Origin: Minwuiaceae bacterium
GTDB lineage: Bacteria; Pseudomonadota; Alphaproteobacteria; Minwuiales; Minwuiaceae
Direction of reading: 5' to 3'
NCBI GenBank assembly: GCA_028278525.1
Contig: JANQEE010000041.1
Location: 1-64,000 of the forward strand
DNA length: 64,000 nucleotides
In this document: positions 11,229-18,215 of the stretch, piece by piece
Numbering within the stretch: position 1 is the stretch's first letter
Layout of the letters: each line of letters opens with the position of its first letter
Made by a program: the position numbers and the translations under genes
Notes under the pieces: generated by a model
What the model saw: the letters and a program-made list of their open reading frames with translations, nothing else
What the model was told of the DNA's origin: nothing
Database searches by the model: none

Positions 11229-13064
11229 CTAGGCTTTCAGATGAAACACCGATATCGGCTCGTGGCGGCCCCGCAAATGTTGGCTGCCGACCGGCGAAAG
11301 GTCATAGCCCGGACCGATGCGGTCGGCCGTATCGCCGCTGACAAGCGTGGAAACGCCCGTATCCTGCCGCAGCAACTCGCGCGCCAGCCCTTCCAGCCGT
11401 TCGGCCGTGTTCACCACGTCGCCGATGATGGTGTAATTGACCCGGCCCGGCGCGCCGATATTGCCGACGATCACGGGACCGCTATGCATGCCGATCCTGA
11501 GGCCGATCGGCGGCAGGCCGGCATTACGGCGCCTTGCGTTGTCGGCTTCGACGGCCCGGGCGATGGCAAGGGCGGCGCGGCAGGCGCGTTCGGCATGATC
11601 GGCCTGTCGCTCCGGGGCGCCCCAGAACGCCATCAACGCGTCGCCCATATACTTGTCGACCGTGCCGCCCTCCGCCTCGATACAGCCGGCGACGAGTGTG
11701 AAATGCTCGTTCAGGAATGCGGCCACTGCCGGCGCGGGAAGCTCTTCCGCGAAGGCCGTGAAGCCGACGATGTCGGTGAACAGTACGGTCACCTCGCGCT
11801 CTTCGGATTGCTCCGGATCCTCGCCGCCGCGCGCGATCAGGCGCCGGACCAGGGACCGCGGCACATAGGTTTCGAACCAGCGCAACCCGCCGATCATGGC
11901 GTTGAAGGCGTTTGCCGCTTCGTTGACTTCGCGGAACCGGCTCCGTCCGATCGTCGGCGCGCCGTCGAGGTTGAGATAGCGGATTTGCCGCGCGGCGGAG
12001 GCCAGTTCCAGGATCGGCCGGCTCAGTCCCCGGCCAAGCCAGACGGCGAGGGCCAGCGCCACCGCCAGGATGCCGAGCCCGATCCACGGCATCAGGCCCA
12101 GGCGCTGCAACTGGCTGGCGGCGTCTCCAACCGGCGCATAGCTGCCGACCAGCCAGGCCGGCTTGCCGAATCCCGTTAGCGCGCGAAACAGCACCACATA
12201 GGTTTCGCCCTCCAGGTCGACGATGCGCGCTTTGAGGCCGTTTCTCATCGGCACGCTGATTTGCGCCGGTTGCTCCGCGGTCCAGAGCCGGGCCAGAACC
12301 GGGTCGCCCAATTCGCTTAGGGCCGGCAGCGGACGGATATCGCTGAGGCCGGGAAAGCCGTTCAGCAGCCTGGGATGCGCGAGGACCGAGTGCTGGCCCG
12401 ACAGTATGAAAGTATTGTCGGTATGGTTGCCGCCCAACGCGCCGAGGAAGCTGGACAGGTCGGAGATCGACACGCCGGCGATCAACGCGCCGGCGAAGCG
12501 TCCGTCGCGGCGAAGCGGCACCCGAATGTTGATGAACGTCTGACCGGTGTCCTCGGCGACAAACAGCTCGCCCCAATAGGCCGCGCCGGCATTTTTCACC
12601 TCGGCCATGGTACGCTGAAAATAGGCGCTGTCGCTCCAGTCCGCGAAGGAAACCGATTCGTTCGGGCGGTTTCGGAACGCGCGCAGCACCCTTAAGTCTG
12701 GATCGACGAACGCGACGACGGAAACCTGTGGCACGGCGGCAAGCGAGGCCGTCAACAGCTTGCCGATCGCCGTTTTGTCGGCGAGGTCGACGCTGGGGTC
12801 GGTCATCAGGTCGGCAAGGAACGCGATCTGCGCATGCGCCGGGTCGAGATGGGCGCGGGTATGCTCGATGATCGAGCCGATGATCAGTTCGGCCTTGTCG
12901 CGTATCAGTTCAGTCGTATTGCGGCGGGCGACCTCATATCCCGCGACGAACACTAGGGCCACGGCCACCAGCACCAGACCGCCGATGCCGCCGAGTATCG
13001 CATGGGCGATGGGCAGGCCGCTGGGTCGGTTGCCAGTCTTCGCTGTCCCAGGGGTATCGGTCAC
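11229..13064 (-). CDS. Membrane adenylate/guanylate cyclase (Cache-HAMP-class III cyclase)
   Basis: A 611-residue membrane receptor cyclase making cAMP (or cGMP). TM1 spans about 20-43. A periplasmic double-Cache-like sensor covers about 45-320 (FADWSDSAYFQRTM, GAYWGELFVAED). TM2 is about 326-345 and HAMP about 346-395. The class III catalytic domain (about 420-600) shows the metal-binding VTVLFTDIVGFT and the GTVDKYMGDALMAFWG segment. The start is GTG 13064. It probably senses a small extracellular ligand. It ends at a strong terminator. Confidence 0.9.
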   Translation of the reverse strand: MTDTPGTAKTGNRPSGLPIAHAILGGIGGLVLVAVALVFVAGYEVARRNTTELIRDKAELIIGSIIEHTRAHLDPAHAQIAFLADLMTDPSVDLADKTAIGKLLTASLAAVPQVSVVAFVDPDLRVLRAFRNRPNESVSFADWSDSAYFQRTMAEVKNAGAAYWGELFVAEDTGQTFINIRVPLRRDGRFAGALIAGVSISDLSSFLGALGGNHTDNTFILSGQHSVLAHPRLLNGFPGLSDIRPLPALSELGDPVLARLWTAEQPAQISVPMRNGLKARIVDLEGETYVVLFRALTGFGKPAWLVGSYAPVGDAASQLQRLGLMPWIGLGILAVALALAVWLGRGLSRPILELASAARQIRYLNLDGAPTIGRSRFREVNEAANAFNAMIGGLRWFETYVPRSLVRRLIARGGEDPEQSEEREVTVLFTDIVGFTAFAEELPAPAVAAFLNEHFTLVAGCIEAEGGTVDKYMGDALMAFWGAPERQADHAERACRAALAIARAVEADNARRRNAGLPPIGLRIGMHSGPVIVGNIGAPGRVNYTIIGDVVNTAERLEGLARELLRQDTGVSTLVSGDTADRIGPGYDLSPVGSQHLRGRHEPISVFHLKA

Positions 13065-13103: not shown

Positions 13104-16100
13104 TCAGGTCAGATCGGTTTCGCCGGCTTGTTCGGCAACCGGGCTATCGATGCCGAGGATGGTCGCGATCCTTACCGCGTCGTCCCATGGCACTTCCACC
13201 TCATCCTCCACGGTCATGCCCAGCAAAGCCTGCCCGGTCGGATCGTCTGCGGAGGCGATGCCGTTGGCAAGATCGGTCGCGCCGGTATCGACAATCAGCG
13301 CGTAGTGTCGGTTCGGCTCGTCGGCGAAGGCCAGCACGACACGGTCCCCCGTCCGGACGGCTCTGACCGTTTGTTCCGTCTCGTCCGGGCCGATCTCCTG
13401 CGTTTCCCCTCGGATCGTTCTATGCGCGACCCAATCGAACGCCGTCGGCGCCGCCTCGTTCGGCCGGATCTCGGCCGCTTCCAGCGCGGCGACCAGGTCG
13501 GCCATGCAGGCGTCCGGGTCCAGGACGAAACTGGAGGCCCAGCAGCGCCAGATCCGCCAGCCGACCCTTTCCAGGACCTTTTGCCGGCGCCAGTCGTCCA
13601 GCCAATCCGGCGACCCGCCGCCGCTGTCGCCGTCCAGGCAGATGGCCAGGCGGCGGCCGTCGTTGCCTTCGACCACCAGGTCAAGCTCGAAGTCGCCGGC
13701 CCGGACCTTCGGCGTCGCATGGTAGCCGTGATCGGTCAAACGGTTGAACAGGTCGCGTTCCAGGTCCGTGCCGCACCGGTCGATCAGCCGGTCCGGGCCC
13801 GTCGCGCGGTCGGGCATCGGATTGCGGAAATGGTCGATCACGCGGGCTTTCAGATCGCGCGGGTTGGTCAGGTCGGACGGTTGGACGGAGCGGAACAAAT
13901 ACATCCGGTCGCGCGCCCGCGACAAAGCAACATTGAACCGCTGCTGCCAAAGCAGCGAGCTTTGCGCGTGGGCGCGGCCCGGGCTCGCCACCATCGAGAT
14001 GAACATCACATCGCGTTCCTTGCCCTGGAATGTGGCGGCGTCGCCGCAGGCGATATGGTGATGCATGAACCGGTCCTCGCCGATCCGTTCGATCAGCAGG
14101 CTCCGGATGTAATGCGCCTGGGCATCGCCGATCAGCGACACGACGCCGAACGTCCGATCGTCGAAAACGGGATCGCCGACCAGGCGTTCGATCTCGTCGA
14201 CGATGGCGTTCGCCTCGGCGGGATTGATCTTTCTGTCGTCGCGCCGGCCGTCCGGCAGATAAACATCGACCAACGGTGGGTCCAGCCGCTCGGCCATCGT
14301 CGGTATGCGAAGCGGCGCGATCTGTTCCGGATAGAACTGGGTGCTGAACCGGATGATCGCCTCGACGCAGCGGAAATGCTCGTTCAGCAGCACCCGTTGA
14401 CCCGGATAAACGGTCTGCGCCAACTCGTACAGCGACCCGCCGGGCATCAGCATGTCGGCGAACGGCTGCGACCCCAGATGGCGGCGGCGCAGTTGCAGCA
14501 ACTTGCGTTCCTCCAGGCCGACCGAGGCCGGGCTGACCTGCCGGTCGTCGCCGACCACCAGCACCTTCTTCGCCCGCAGCAGCGCCGGCAGCGCCATGGC
14601 GTCCGACTGCGAGGCTTCGTCGACGATCACCAGGTCGAATGCACCGATATCGGCCGGCAGGGTTTCGGACACCCGCCAGGTCGGCATCACCCAGCAGGGC
14701 ACGGAGGCCAGGCATTCGTCCATGGCCCGGCGGGCGTCGCCGCGATAGCGCCGGGCGCGAACGCCGGTGCCGGCGCCGATCCGGCGCACGGCGGAAATGA
14801 AGCGCACCAATGCCGCCAGCCGCGCCTCGGTCATCCGGCGGTGCAGGCCGATATAGGTGCGCAGCCGAACCAACTCGGACATGGCCCGTTCCATCTGGCT
14901 GTCCAACGTCAGGCGCCGCTCGGACAGCGCCTTCAGCGGTGCCCGGGGATCGATCTCTTCCAGGTGGCTTTCCAGGCGGCGAAAGGCCCAGGACCGGTGC
15001 CAGTCGTCCGGCGTCAACCGATCCCCGGTCTCCTCCGCCGGTTCGGATTTCAGCAACGCGGCCCAGTTCGGCGCGCCGGATGCCTCGATTGACGCTGCGA
15101 TACGCTTTATCTCGTCGAAATCGGCCTCAAGCGCGTGAACTCGGCTAAGTTCGGCCAACAGGGCGGCCCAGTCTTGTTCGATAACGTCCAGAGTGGTTTC
15201 CGGGTCACCGACCATCGTCCCGAGAAAACCGCGCAGCGCGTCGACTACCGGCCCGTCGAATTCGGCAAGGTTATTCAGCGCCTGGTTCAGCCCGTTGCGC
15301 GCGGCGCTCAATCGGATACGCGCCAGGTTGTTCTCCAACGCGGCGATAGCGCGGTCCAGCGCCGCCGTGTCCGTCGCAGTTTCGCCTGGGTCCAGACCAT
15401 AGGGAAACAGGACCTCCATCTCGGACTTCCAGGTGTCGCGAAAAGTTGTGGCAGTGTCGCGGAGACGGTTCAGCGACCGATGCATATCCGCGAGCCATCG
15501 ACCGGTTTCGCCAAGGGTAGCTTCGTCACCCTGCGGTGCGGGCGGCAGGTCCAACGCCTCGACGACGCCGGCCCAGCGGGCCGTCAACCGCTTCAAACCG
15601 GCTTCGTAGTCGAGAAACGTCGCGATGTGCGACCACTGCCCGGCATCCTTTGGCGGCTCGCCGGCCACGGTGATTTCCGCGGTCAGCGCTTTGGCACCCG
15701 CTTTGCCGGGCATAAGGGCGGGGAAGGGACGTTTGCCTTCCGCCGCTCTGGCGACCGCCGCGGTGACGGCGTCCCGCTCGGTGCCGAGCGCAGGCACGAT
15801 TACCGGCCGTTCGATAAAGGCGAGCCTGCCCTCCACCAGCACGGCCATATCGTCGATCAGCGCATCGACTGCGGCAACGTCCGGCCGCTCGCCGTCCGGA
15901 GCCAGCCAGGCCAGGTAGAGATCGTTCAGCCATTTCCGGTCGCCGGTTTCCCGCAGAACCGTGCGCTGATCGCGAAGCGCCGACAACAGCGCGTCGGCGC
16001 GCTCGACCGCATCTTCCGCCTCCGTAGCGAGCGTGGGCATCCGATCCGCTTCCGCCAGTCGAAGCAGGGCGTCCGCCCTTGTCAGGTCGTCATGCGCCGC

Positions 16101-18092
16101 GGTGATTTCATTGGCGGCCGGTATTTGGTCGGCGCTTGGCAACAGGCAACTCAGATAGACGATGTCGGCGCCGACCTTTCGCCGTGCCGCCCGCAGCTTG
16201 GCGATATCCGCGTCGGTGAACTGCGGATCGAAGTCCAAACCCGCCCCGATCCGGTCTTCCAGCCAGGCATGGGCCGGGCGTTCCTGCGCGACGCGGGCCG
16301 CCAGGTCGGCGGGCATTCGGTCGCCGCTATCCCATACATTGTCCGCAATGGGCGTCAGCTGCTTGCCGGCCCAGTCGCGAACGGCGCCATCCAGCGCGGC
16401 CGTCTCCTGGCGGAGGTCCAGGATCTCCCGCTCTTTCGCCAGCCTCTCTCGGTCGATCCGCGCGGGATCCTGGTTGGCGACGTCGTTGGCGATGAACGCG
16501 ACCGCCTTTTCCAACTGCCTCAGGCCGTCGCGTTCGCTGGTCAGCAAGTTGATCGTCAGGTCGCGCAGCTCCGGCGGAAAGTGCCCGCGCAGCACCTCCA
16601 GCGCCCCTTCGCCTTTGGAGGTAACCAGTACGCTTCGCCCCGTCGCCAGGTAGTGGCAGACGATGTTGGCGATGGTGTGCGACTTGCCGGTGCCGGGCGG
16701 TCCTTGCACGACGATGCCGTCGGCGGCCTCCAGCCGGCGGACGATATCCAGTTGCGCGTCGTTGTAGGGTTTCGGAAAGAATACGTCGCCGTCGAAGCCG
16801 GCCGGATACGCTGCCGATTCCGATGTTTCCGCTTCGCCGCTCAGCGACAGCGGCAAGGCGATGCCGGCGCCCGCCGCCATGTCGCCGGGCAGGGTGACCA
16901 GCCGCGCCGCCGCGGCGGGCAGCGCTTCCGGCGAAGCGGCGGCGATATGGCGTCTCAGCCTTTCGACATCCTGGATGAAGAAGTTGCCGCCGCGCGGCCG
17001 CGCATAGACCGCCCAGCTATCGGTGATCGTCAGGTTGGCGCCGGCGGGCGGCGGCCGCCGGTCGGTGGGATCGTGCGACGTGTCGGGATGGTAGACGCCG
17101 TCGGACGACAACAGCGTGGCTGCCTGGCGCAATATCGGCTCGTAGCTCGCCCGCTCGAACGGCGAGAAATCGGCCGGTCCGTCCGCGGTCGCGCCGTTCT
17201 CCCGTTGCAGGATGGCCGTCAGATGCCGTTCCGCCGCCTCGCGCACCCGCGCTGCGCCTGGGTTATCCAGTTCCTCGAACGGTTTCAGGTAGATCTGCGG
17301 GTCGCTCTCGCGCGGCCGTACCCGGATCGTATGGGTCAGCGGATCGATTTCGACCTCGACCAGGGCCTCGATCAGCGGGTGTTCGATCGTCCGACCTTCG
17401 GTCCGCCACAGAGCCAGGCCGACGCCCAGCGCGACTTCTGTCGGATTTTCAGCGCCTTCCGCCTCTATGGTTTGCGCCAGCGCGAAGAACCGGTCGTAGA
17501 TGGCAATGCTCTCGCGCCGCGGCCGTTCCGCCTCCGACCACCGCTGCCACGGGCCGCTGATGTAAGCGTCCACCTGGCGTTGAATGGCGGGCAGCCGGTC
17601 GAGTTGCAGGCGCACCTGGACCTGGTCCGGCGCGGTTTCCGATATTTCCAGGTCCGCCACGTCACCCGGGTCGGTGGCGCCGGTCCGCACCAGGTCAGCC
17701 GCCGCCACCCGCGACATCGTCGCGGTCCGGCTGGCCGTGACGCCGGGTTCCTGTCCGGGGTCGGGCGATATCTCGAGCCAGTCCGCGATCGCGCTCGGCG
17801 GCTCGGGCGGATCGTGGCGCTGCAGTCGGTCCAGCTTCAGCCAGACGGCGCCCTCGTCGTCGACCAGGTCGTGCAGGATGCCGACCCTGTCGCGCAGCTG
17901 ATATTCGTGAAACGCCAGCGCCCGGTAGCTCCGAAGCGAAAAAACGGCGCTCTCGGTCAGCCGCGCCATCTCCTCGACATAGGTCAGCAGTCCGTTCAAA
18001 CGTTGTTTGGTTTCCGGCAAACGGGTCGCCCTCTTTTCATCCCGGCCGGAATCGCGGCCTAACCCTATATGGGAGGCGTTTGGGATCTGCAT
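13104..18092 (-). CDS. Giant SF1 helicase with C-terminal Vsr-like nuclease and GreA/GreB-like tail
   Basis: A protein of 1662 residues. Residue numbers here count from a TTG two codons before ATG 18092. The N-terminal 440 residues are unassigned. Walker A GPPGTGKS is at 466-473. A long helical insertion of roughly 650 residues follows. Then come Walker B VIVDEAS (about 1157), GDDRQVSP, HFRC (about 1237) and NVALSRARDR (about 1391), giving a DNA2/UPF1-type SF1 helicase. Residues about 1444-1530 (LERDLFNRL, DFELDLVVEG, ICLDGD, RRQKVLERVGWRIWRCW) match the Vsr/MTES_1575-type endonuclease fold. Residues about 1584-1650 (GDRVVLAF, GIASADDPTGQALLGM, EDEVEVP) resemble the GreA/GreB C-terminal FKBP-like domain. 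Helicase-nuclease proteins of this size are often defence-associated. No partner genes adjoin it. Confidence 0.85.
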   Translation of the reverse strand: MQIPNASHIGLGRDSGRDEKRATRLPETKQRLNGLLTYVEEMARLTESAVFSLRSYRALAFHEYQLRDRVGILHDLVDDEGAVWLKLDRLQRHDPPEPPSAIADWLEISPDPGQEPGVTASRTATMSRVAAADLVRTGATDPGDVADLEISETAPDQVQVRLQLDRLPAIQRQVDAYISGPWQRWSEAERPRRESIAIYDRFFALAQTIEAEGAENPTEVALGVGLALWRTEGRTIEHPLIEALVEVEIDPLTHTIRVRPRESDPQIYLKPFEELDNPGAARVREAAERHLTAILQRENGATADGPADFSPFERASYEPILRQAATLLSSDGVYHPDTSHDPTDRRPPPAGANLTITDSWAVYARPRGGNFFIQDVERLRRHIAAASPEALPAAAARLVTLPGDMAAGAGIALPLSLSGEAETSESAAYPAGFDGDVFFPKPYNDAQLDIVRRLEAADGIVVQGPPGTGKSHTIANIVCHYLATGRSVLVTSKGEGALEVLRGHFPPELRDLTINLLTSERDGLRQLEKAVAFIANDVANQDPARIDRERLAKEREILDLRQETAALDGAVRDWAGKQLTPIADNVWDSGDRMPADLAARVAQERPAHAWLEDRIGAGLDFDPQFTDADIAKLRAARRKVGADIVYLSCLLPSADQIPAANEITAAHDDLTRADALLRLAEADRMPTLATEAEDAVERADALLSALRDQRTVLRETGDRKWLNDLYLAWLAPDGERPDVAAVDALIDDMAVLVEGRLAFIERPVIVPALGTERDAVTAAVARAAEGKRPFPALMPGKAGAKALTAEITVAGEPPKDAGQWSHIATFLDYEAGLKRLTARWAGVVEALDLPPAPQGDEATLGETGRWLADMHRSLNRLRDTATTFRDTWKSEMEVLFPYGLDPGETATDTAALDRAIAALENNLARIRLSAARNGLNQALNNLAEFDGPVVDALRGFLGTMVGDPETTLDVIEQDWAALLAELSRVHALEADFDEIKRIAASIEASGAPNWAALLKSEPAEETGDRLTPDDWHRSWAFRRLESHLEEIDPRAPLKALSERRLTLDSQMERAMSELVRLRTYIGLHRRMTEARLAALVRFISAVRRIGAGTGVRARRYRGDARRAMDECLASVPCWVMPTWRVSETLPADIGAFDLVIVDEASQSDAMALPALLRAKKVLVVGDDRQVSPASVGLEERKLLQLRRRHLGSQPFADMLMPGGSLYELAQTVYPGQRVLLNEHFRCVEAIIRFSTQFYPEQIAPLRIPTMAERLDPPLVDVYLPDGRRDDRKINPAEANAIVDEIERLVGDPVFDDRTFGVVSLIGDAQAHYIRSLLIERIGEDRFMHHHIACGDAATFQGKERDVMFISMVASPGRAHAQSSLLWQQRFNVALSRARDRMYLFRSVQPSDLTNPRDLKARVIDHFRNPMPDRATGPDRLIDRCGTDLERDLFNRLTDHGYHATPKVRAGDFELDLVVEGNDGRRLAICLDGDSGGGSPDWLDDWRRQKVLERVGWRIWRCWASSFVLDPDACMADLVAALEAAEIRPNEAAPTAFDWVAHRTIRGETQEIGPDETEQTVRAVRTGDRVVLAFADEPNRHYALIVDTGATDLANGIASADDPTGQALLGMTVEDEVEVPWDDAVRIATILGIDSPVAEQAGETDLT

Positions 18093-18215
18093 CGGCAATC
18101 AACCTTAATGTCCCGGCGTGACGGTTATCGCAGCCGGCGCGGAACCTTGTCTGCCACCGCCTTGCGCTTTTGGTGGCATCTTCGTGGCAATTTGGGGGCA
18201 GGCCTTACAAAGGCT

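Follow-up and report, generated by a model that had tools for sequence, protein, structure and literature searches.

The window, the whole 64,000-nucleotide stretch of DNA analysed here, encodes a single protein in which an SF1 helicase, a Vsr-fold domain and a GreA/GreB-type C-terminal domain follow one another in one chain, an architecture that is near certain. We give about an even chance to the reading that this is a defence-family SF1 helicase tethered to RNA polymerase (RNAP) by a flexibly linked, Gre-type docking domain. Taken on their own, the claims that the tail binds RNAP and that this copy acts in defence each seem moderately probable. The preliminary description had placed the gene at 13104-18092; the open reading frame exists, on the minus strand, with its stop at 13104, and 18092 is an in-frame ATG (residue 3, giving 1662 aa), but a TTG start codon lies in the same frame at 18098. 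Residues of the protein are counted from this TTG throughout (Table 1).

Table 1. Parts of the window gene, with positions in the window
Feature	Residues	Position	Strand	Basis or remark
Full-length gene (SF1 helicase, Vsr-fold and Gre-type C-terminal domains)	1664 aa from TTG	13104..18098	-	
N-terminal region	22-445	16764..18035	-	Family-conserved, no Pfam family
Walker A, GPPGTGKS	466-473	16680..16703	-	Motif reading
Extended insertion separating helicase motifs I and II	about 540-1100	14799..16481	-	Limits approximate
Walker B / motif II, DEASQS	1160-1165	14604..14621	-	Motif reading
Second RecA-like domain (AAA_12), including motifs V and VI	1222-1401	13896..14435	-	Pfam and motifs
Vsr/MTES_1575-fold domain	1447-1539	13482..13760	-	Pfam and AlphaFold2 model
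Degenerate nuclease motif (C for conserved E, G for conserved H)	C1487, G1494	13617..13640	-	Alignment
Low-confidence linker without Gre-type coiled coil	1551-1575	13374..13448	-	AlphaFold2 model
GreA/GreB C-terminal domain (putative RNA-polymerase-docking domain)	1580-1650	13149..13361	-	Profiles and fold

Both profile and fold identify the tail. Searched within the whole protein, the Pfam family GreA_GreB (PF01272) matched residues 1580-1650 at E 1.8e-5 and 25.0 bits, just below its cut-off of 26.9; the tail scored above that cut-off when searched alone (30.2 bits) and in a six-frame search of the genome (31.3 bits). The only stronger matches in the whole genome were its own GreA and GreB (contigs C12 and C7), and the tail is therefore no misplaced housekeeping gene. 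A profile of six helicase tails, built without any GreA or GreB row, was searched against all PDB sequences, and E. coli GreA ranked first (E 6.5e-5). For the tail in an AlphaFold2 model covering residues 1436-1664 (mean pLDDT 84), the first ten rows of a Foldseek search were all Gre-family entries, and VIA-align ranked Gfh1 (Z 13.5, 78 residues, rmsd 2.3), GreA (Z 11.1) and RNAP-bound Gfh1 (Z 10.6) above the FKBPs (Z at most 7.8). These results bear out the GreA/GreB-like tail of the preliminary description, which had named the lack of a significant profile match, either of the last 80 residues to Gre or of the preceding segment to a nuclease fold, as a sequence result against it; neither lack arose.

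The domain thus shares, by profile and fold, the C-terminal globular domain of GreA, GreB, Gfh1 and Rnk. It differs from them in being fused to a helicase and in having no adjoining N-terminal coiled coil with an acidic tip; in the model it is preceded by a low-confidence linker, so the tail is a Gre docking domain only and not a Gre factor, one for which we infer RNAP binding. HelD, too, joins an SF1 motor to a Gre-like region, in its case one that binds RNAP (PMC7749165), but there the Gre-like region is N-terminal and includes a long coiled coil, the core is UvrD-like and the protein is described without a nuclease domain (PMC7749165). The Gre domain of the window protein lies at the C-terminus, behind a Vsr-fold domain and without an adjoining coiled coil.

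The helicase itself carries every SF1 motif (YNDAQ at 445, GPPGTGKS at 466, DEASQS at 1160, GDDRQVSP at 1183, HFRC at 1241, FQGKERDV at 1357 and NVALSRARDR at 1389), and about 700 residues separate motif I from motif II, as expected from the earlier claim of a complete motif set split by a very long insertion. Pfam places AAA_30 at 445-507 and AAA_11 with AAA_12 within 1153-1401. Matches of the motor among PDB sequences were the SMUBP-2, Upf1 and Sen1 helicases, and homologues from plasmids and genomes aligned over nearly the full length of the window helicase at 29-40% identity.

Family models place the protein among known helicase-nucleases. The NCBIfam model antiphage_ProA (NF058533) matched at E 3e-57 and 193.9 bits against a cut-off of 1500, Hhe (NF042953) at E 9e-35 and 119.5 bits against a cut-off of 2000, and the PADLOC candidate PDC-S37 at E 4.5e-52. 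These matches, the first two far below their cut-offs, support membership in the MTES_1575-type SF1 helicase-nuclease (ProA/Hhe/PDC-S37) superfamily, and it is at this level that the proposed link to anti-phage helicase-nucleases holds; with 193.9 of 1500 bits, the protein is a relative of antiphage_ProA and not a ProA. The best family-level matches, ProA and PDC-S37, share with it the SF1 core, the long insertion and the C-terminal MTES_1575 domain, but the ProA match spans residues 440-1553 and leaves the Gre tail outside, and nuclease residues are lost in the window copy. Hhe too combines an SF1 helicase and MTES_1575 in one chain, and some DUF4011 relatives (L150 and L152) are also Gre-tailed; the window protein, however, has no Pfam match to DUF4011 and lies on a separate branch of the tree. 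The helicase-Vsr architecture is already known (PMC3710099), with anti-phage members in NCBIfam and candidates in PADLOC: the MTES_1575 proteins of a HEPN survey similarly combine, in a single chain, an SF-I helicase and a Vsr-type REase domain with further domains that vary, there HEPN, transglutaminase and winged-helix (the last overlapping DUF3320), with GreA unmentioned (PMC3710099). Among the open-access titles and abstracts that literature searches returned, none described the Gre-tailed form, and no paper in the searchable open literature brought MTES_1575, helicase and GreA together.

The segment before the tail, earlier read as a Vsr/MTES_1575-type endonuclease, matched Pfam MTES_1575 across residues 1447-1539 (E 4.1e-22, 78.5 bits against a cut-off of 38.2), and its modelled fold was nearest, among the structures listed by VIA-align, to the homing endonuclease I-Bth0305I (Z 13.5), followed by NGO0050 (Z 12.4) and Vsr (Z 9.9). 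The helicase-nuclease reading therefore stood for the helicase and the Vsr fold but not for an intact nuclease, two conserved motif residues being absent from the window copy. In close kin the motif runs E...D...AI-E-(C/L)-DGDxY-H; in the window protein it ends AI-C-LDGDSG-G, with Cys 1487 for E and Gly 1494 for H. Each of the other 25 rows in alignment A3 kept both residues, and in a wider set of 120 the E was kept in 111 and the H in 91, only L052, L067, L101 and L006 otherwise being without both. The order of the motif suggests that these two positions are catalytic; EDxHD is the family motif named in a review, and the FASTKD4 paper names an Asp-His pair of Vsr. With two conserved motif residues replaced (E1487C and H1494G), cutting was probably lost, and the window copy would cut weakly or not at all. 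A frameshift or assembly error behind the change is unlikely because close homologues can be aligned to the segment with no gaps. The FASTKD4 paper also describes a Vsr-like domain that possibly lost its nuclease activity and turned adapter.

Gre tails recur among relatives of the window protein. When the C-terminal part of each protein was searched, scores above the Pfam cut-off were obtained for a Microvirga ossetica plasmid (L021, 36.4 bits), Betaproteobacterium MS502-43 (L092, 34.3 bits), an IMG/VR viral contig (L108, 31.7 bits), Streptomyces diastatochromogenes (L059, 31.2 bits) and R. leguminosarum pRLN2 (L152, 29.0 bits), and scores slightly under it for an alphaproteobacterial genome (L150, 25.3 bits) and Streptomyces ST2-7A (L067, 23.9 bits). 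On a tree of 95 sequences, drawn from the conserved C-terminal part, these tails fall in three separate clades: that of the window, a DUF4011/Hhe-like clade and Streptomyces. A single origin of the Gre tail was rejected, as the tree requires 7 changes, at least 5 of them forced by supported branches. Most close kin stop shortly past the nuclease, and DUF3320 tails are found in L024, weakly in L107, and in L162 by its sequence. Tails are swappable across the family (none, DUF3320, WGR or Gre).

The nuclease motif is retained in the Gre-tailed Microvirga and viral-contig proteins. The Gre-tailed protein of Streptomyces sp. ST2-7A (L067:10160-10954, plus strand) has also lost the conserved E and H, and its close Gre-tailed relative L059 keeps both. 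Loss of the nuclease residues was counted in 2 of 8 proteins with a Gre tail and 3 of 112 without (Fisher p 0.035), an association that ignores phylogeny, was noticed post hoc and is suggestive only.

The Gre-tailed architecture is rare. The tail alone, used in tblastn against plasmids, matched only Microvirga, and a second scan of viral contigs with the Gre-tailed clade added nothing. Close homologues occur in 4 of 385 genomes of the class, with the tail seen only in the window's own (one homologue ends at a contig edge), and none of the eight same-family genomes searched held a comparably strong homologue.

A survey of homologues for defence islands, proposed in the preliminary description, gave a divided answer: homologues lie beside Wadjet, BREX and restriction-modification genes, but the neighbourhood of the window gene is not a defence island. 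The Gre-tailed L092 directly adjoins a complete Wadjet operon (jetABCD, with JetA to JetD recognised by PADLOC), and a capP-like gene lies on the opposite side. Among relatives without a Gre tail, one in Acinetobacter follows brxL of a BREX operon, two on Sphingobium plasmids follow a methyltransferase and a restriction endonuclease, one in Variovorax lies near a DUF4194/AAA gene pair, and one has AbiE genes some kilobases away. On the viral contig, the L108 helicase adjoins what its sequence marks as an apparent large serine recombinase (L108:4532-5905, minus strand; no PADLOC match), which suggests carriage on a mobile element.

On the same strand, the window gene has an amino-acid ABC transporter on one side and a dCache adenylate cyclase on the other, and no defence system was found among its ten neighbours. 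The cyclase gene (window 11229-13064, minus strand) starts 39 bp past the helicase stop and resembles an ordinary sensory adenylate/guanylate cyclase. It matches PycC models but was rejected as Pycsar, given its dCache domain and the cyclase-domain homologues present in 8 of 8 same-family genomes. The adjacent permease had no match at E ≤ 1e-30 in eight same-family genomes, so the window region itself is not family-conserved.

These observations lead us to a model in which the tail would dock on RNAP, most likely on the beta-prime rim helices at the site used by GreA and GreB. Gre factors bind RNAP through their C-terminal globular domain, which sits on those helices, and their coiled coil reaches into the secondary channel (PMC4598747, PMC7527559, PMC7749165). 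As the tail lacks the coiled coil that carries the two acidic residues of Gre factors, it should act as a tether to RNAP or a competitor of GreA, GreB and DksA and should not stimulate transcript cleavage. Docking would bring the ATP-driven helicase to DNA, RNA or hybrids where a polymerase is transcribing or has stalled, invading DNA being one such setting. Cutting by the Vsr-fold nuclease would follow in most relatives; in the window copy, with the two conserved motif residues lost, that domain more likely only binds nucleic acid, and the helicase would strip or block the transcribed element. Against docking stand the divergence of the relatives' tails (19-30% identity to that of the window), whose RNAP contact surface may not be conserved, and the report that the C-terminal domain of GreA alone is insufficient for fully specific binding (PMC7527559); the non-defensive flanks of the window gene and the antiphage_ProA and Hhe scores far below cut-off also count against tethering of a defence helicase.

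It is unlikely, in our estimate, that the tail is instead a general-purpose FKBP-like module for interaction or autoinhibition with a target other than RNAP (a partner, the protein's own nuclease or a phage protein) on a helicase otherwise of the ProA/Hhe type. Such a module would fit the FKBP-like fold common to Gre C-terminal domains, the FKBP matches noted above and the divergence of the tails, and the unrelated DUF3320 and WGR tails of other members indicate that tails in general may be regulators. Nevertheless, RNAP-binding Gre and Gfh1 proteins come clearly first by both sequence and structure, and RNAP binding is the simpler explanation for the repeated acquisition of one RNAP-binding domain.

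The non-defensive context of the window gene, the loss of its nuclease residues, which would fit domestication, and the precedent of HelD could also describe a housekeeping helicase for RNAP recycling or repair that arose from a defence family and clears stalled polymerase or R-loops with no anti-phage role. We regard this as rather improbable, since a housekeeping gene should be family-conserved and this one is sporadic in the family and the class, with homologues carried by plasmids and a viral contig or lying among defence genes. The same E1487C and H1494G changes might mark a decaying defence gene whose nuclease is dead and whose protein is functionless, a very improbable outcome for a frame of 1664 codons that is intact, keeps all its helicase motifs and still has a Gre domain above the Pfam cut-off in the tail-alone and genome searches.

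The recurrent Gre tails suggest that immune helicases may patrol DNA during transcription, and a repeatedly acquired RNAP-docking domain would point to transcription as the cue by which helicase-nuclease immune proteins recognise foreign DNA. More tentatively, anti-phage-family helicases may have gained the Gre domain repeatedly to ride or seize RNAP on invading DNA, a transcription-linked immunity in which, for the window copy, the nuclease would be dispensable and interference would come from the polymerase-tethered motor. A copy with a degenerate nuclease allows the effects of motor and docking to be told apart from those of cutting.

The N-terminal region of the helicase family (window 16764-18035, minus strand) is conserved and confidently modelled, without a Pfam family or a clear relative among solved structures. 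Its model (window 16743-18035, about residues 22-452) is well folded (pLDDT 84); Foldseek against the PDB returned no match at E ≤ 0.001 and VIA-align none at Z ≥ 5, Upf1 at Z 3.1 over 136 residues being a weak hint. A distant Sphingomonas relative (L101:13184-13543, plus strand) has a WGR domain (E 9e-17) as its tail; like L006, it lacks the conserved nuclease E and H. In G611, a DUF4011/MTES_1575/DUF3320 helicase gene is overlapped at its 3' end by a separate 103-residue open reading frame (L151:7504-7815, plus strand), which has a weak match (17.6 bits) to the GreA/GreB C-terminal domain and is perhaps a split, two-gene form of the helicase-Gre fusion or a frameshifted tail.
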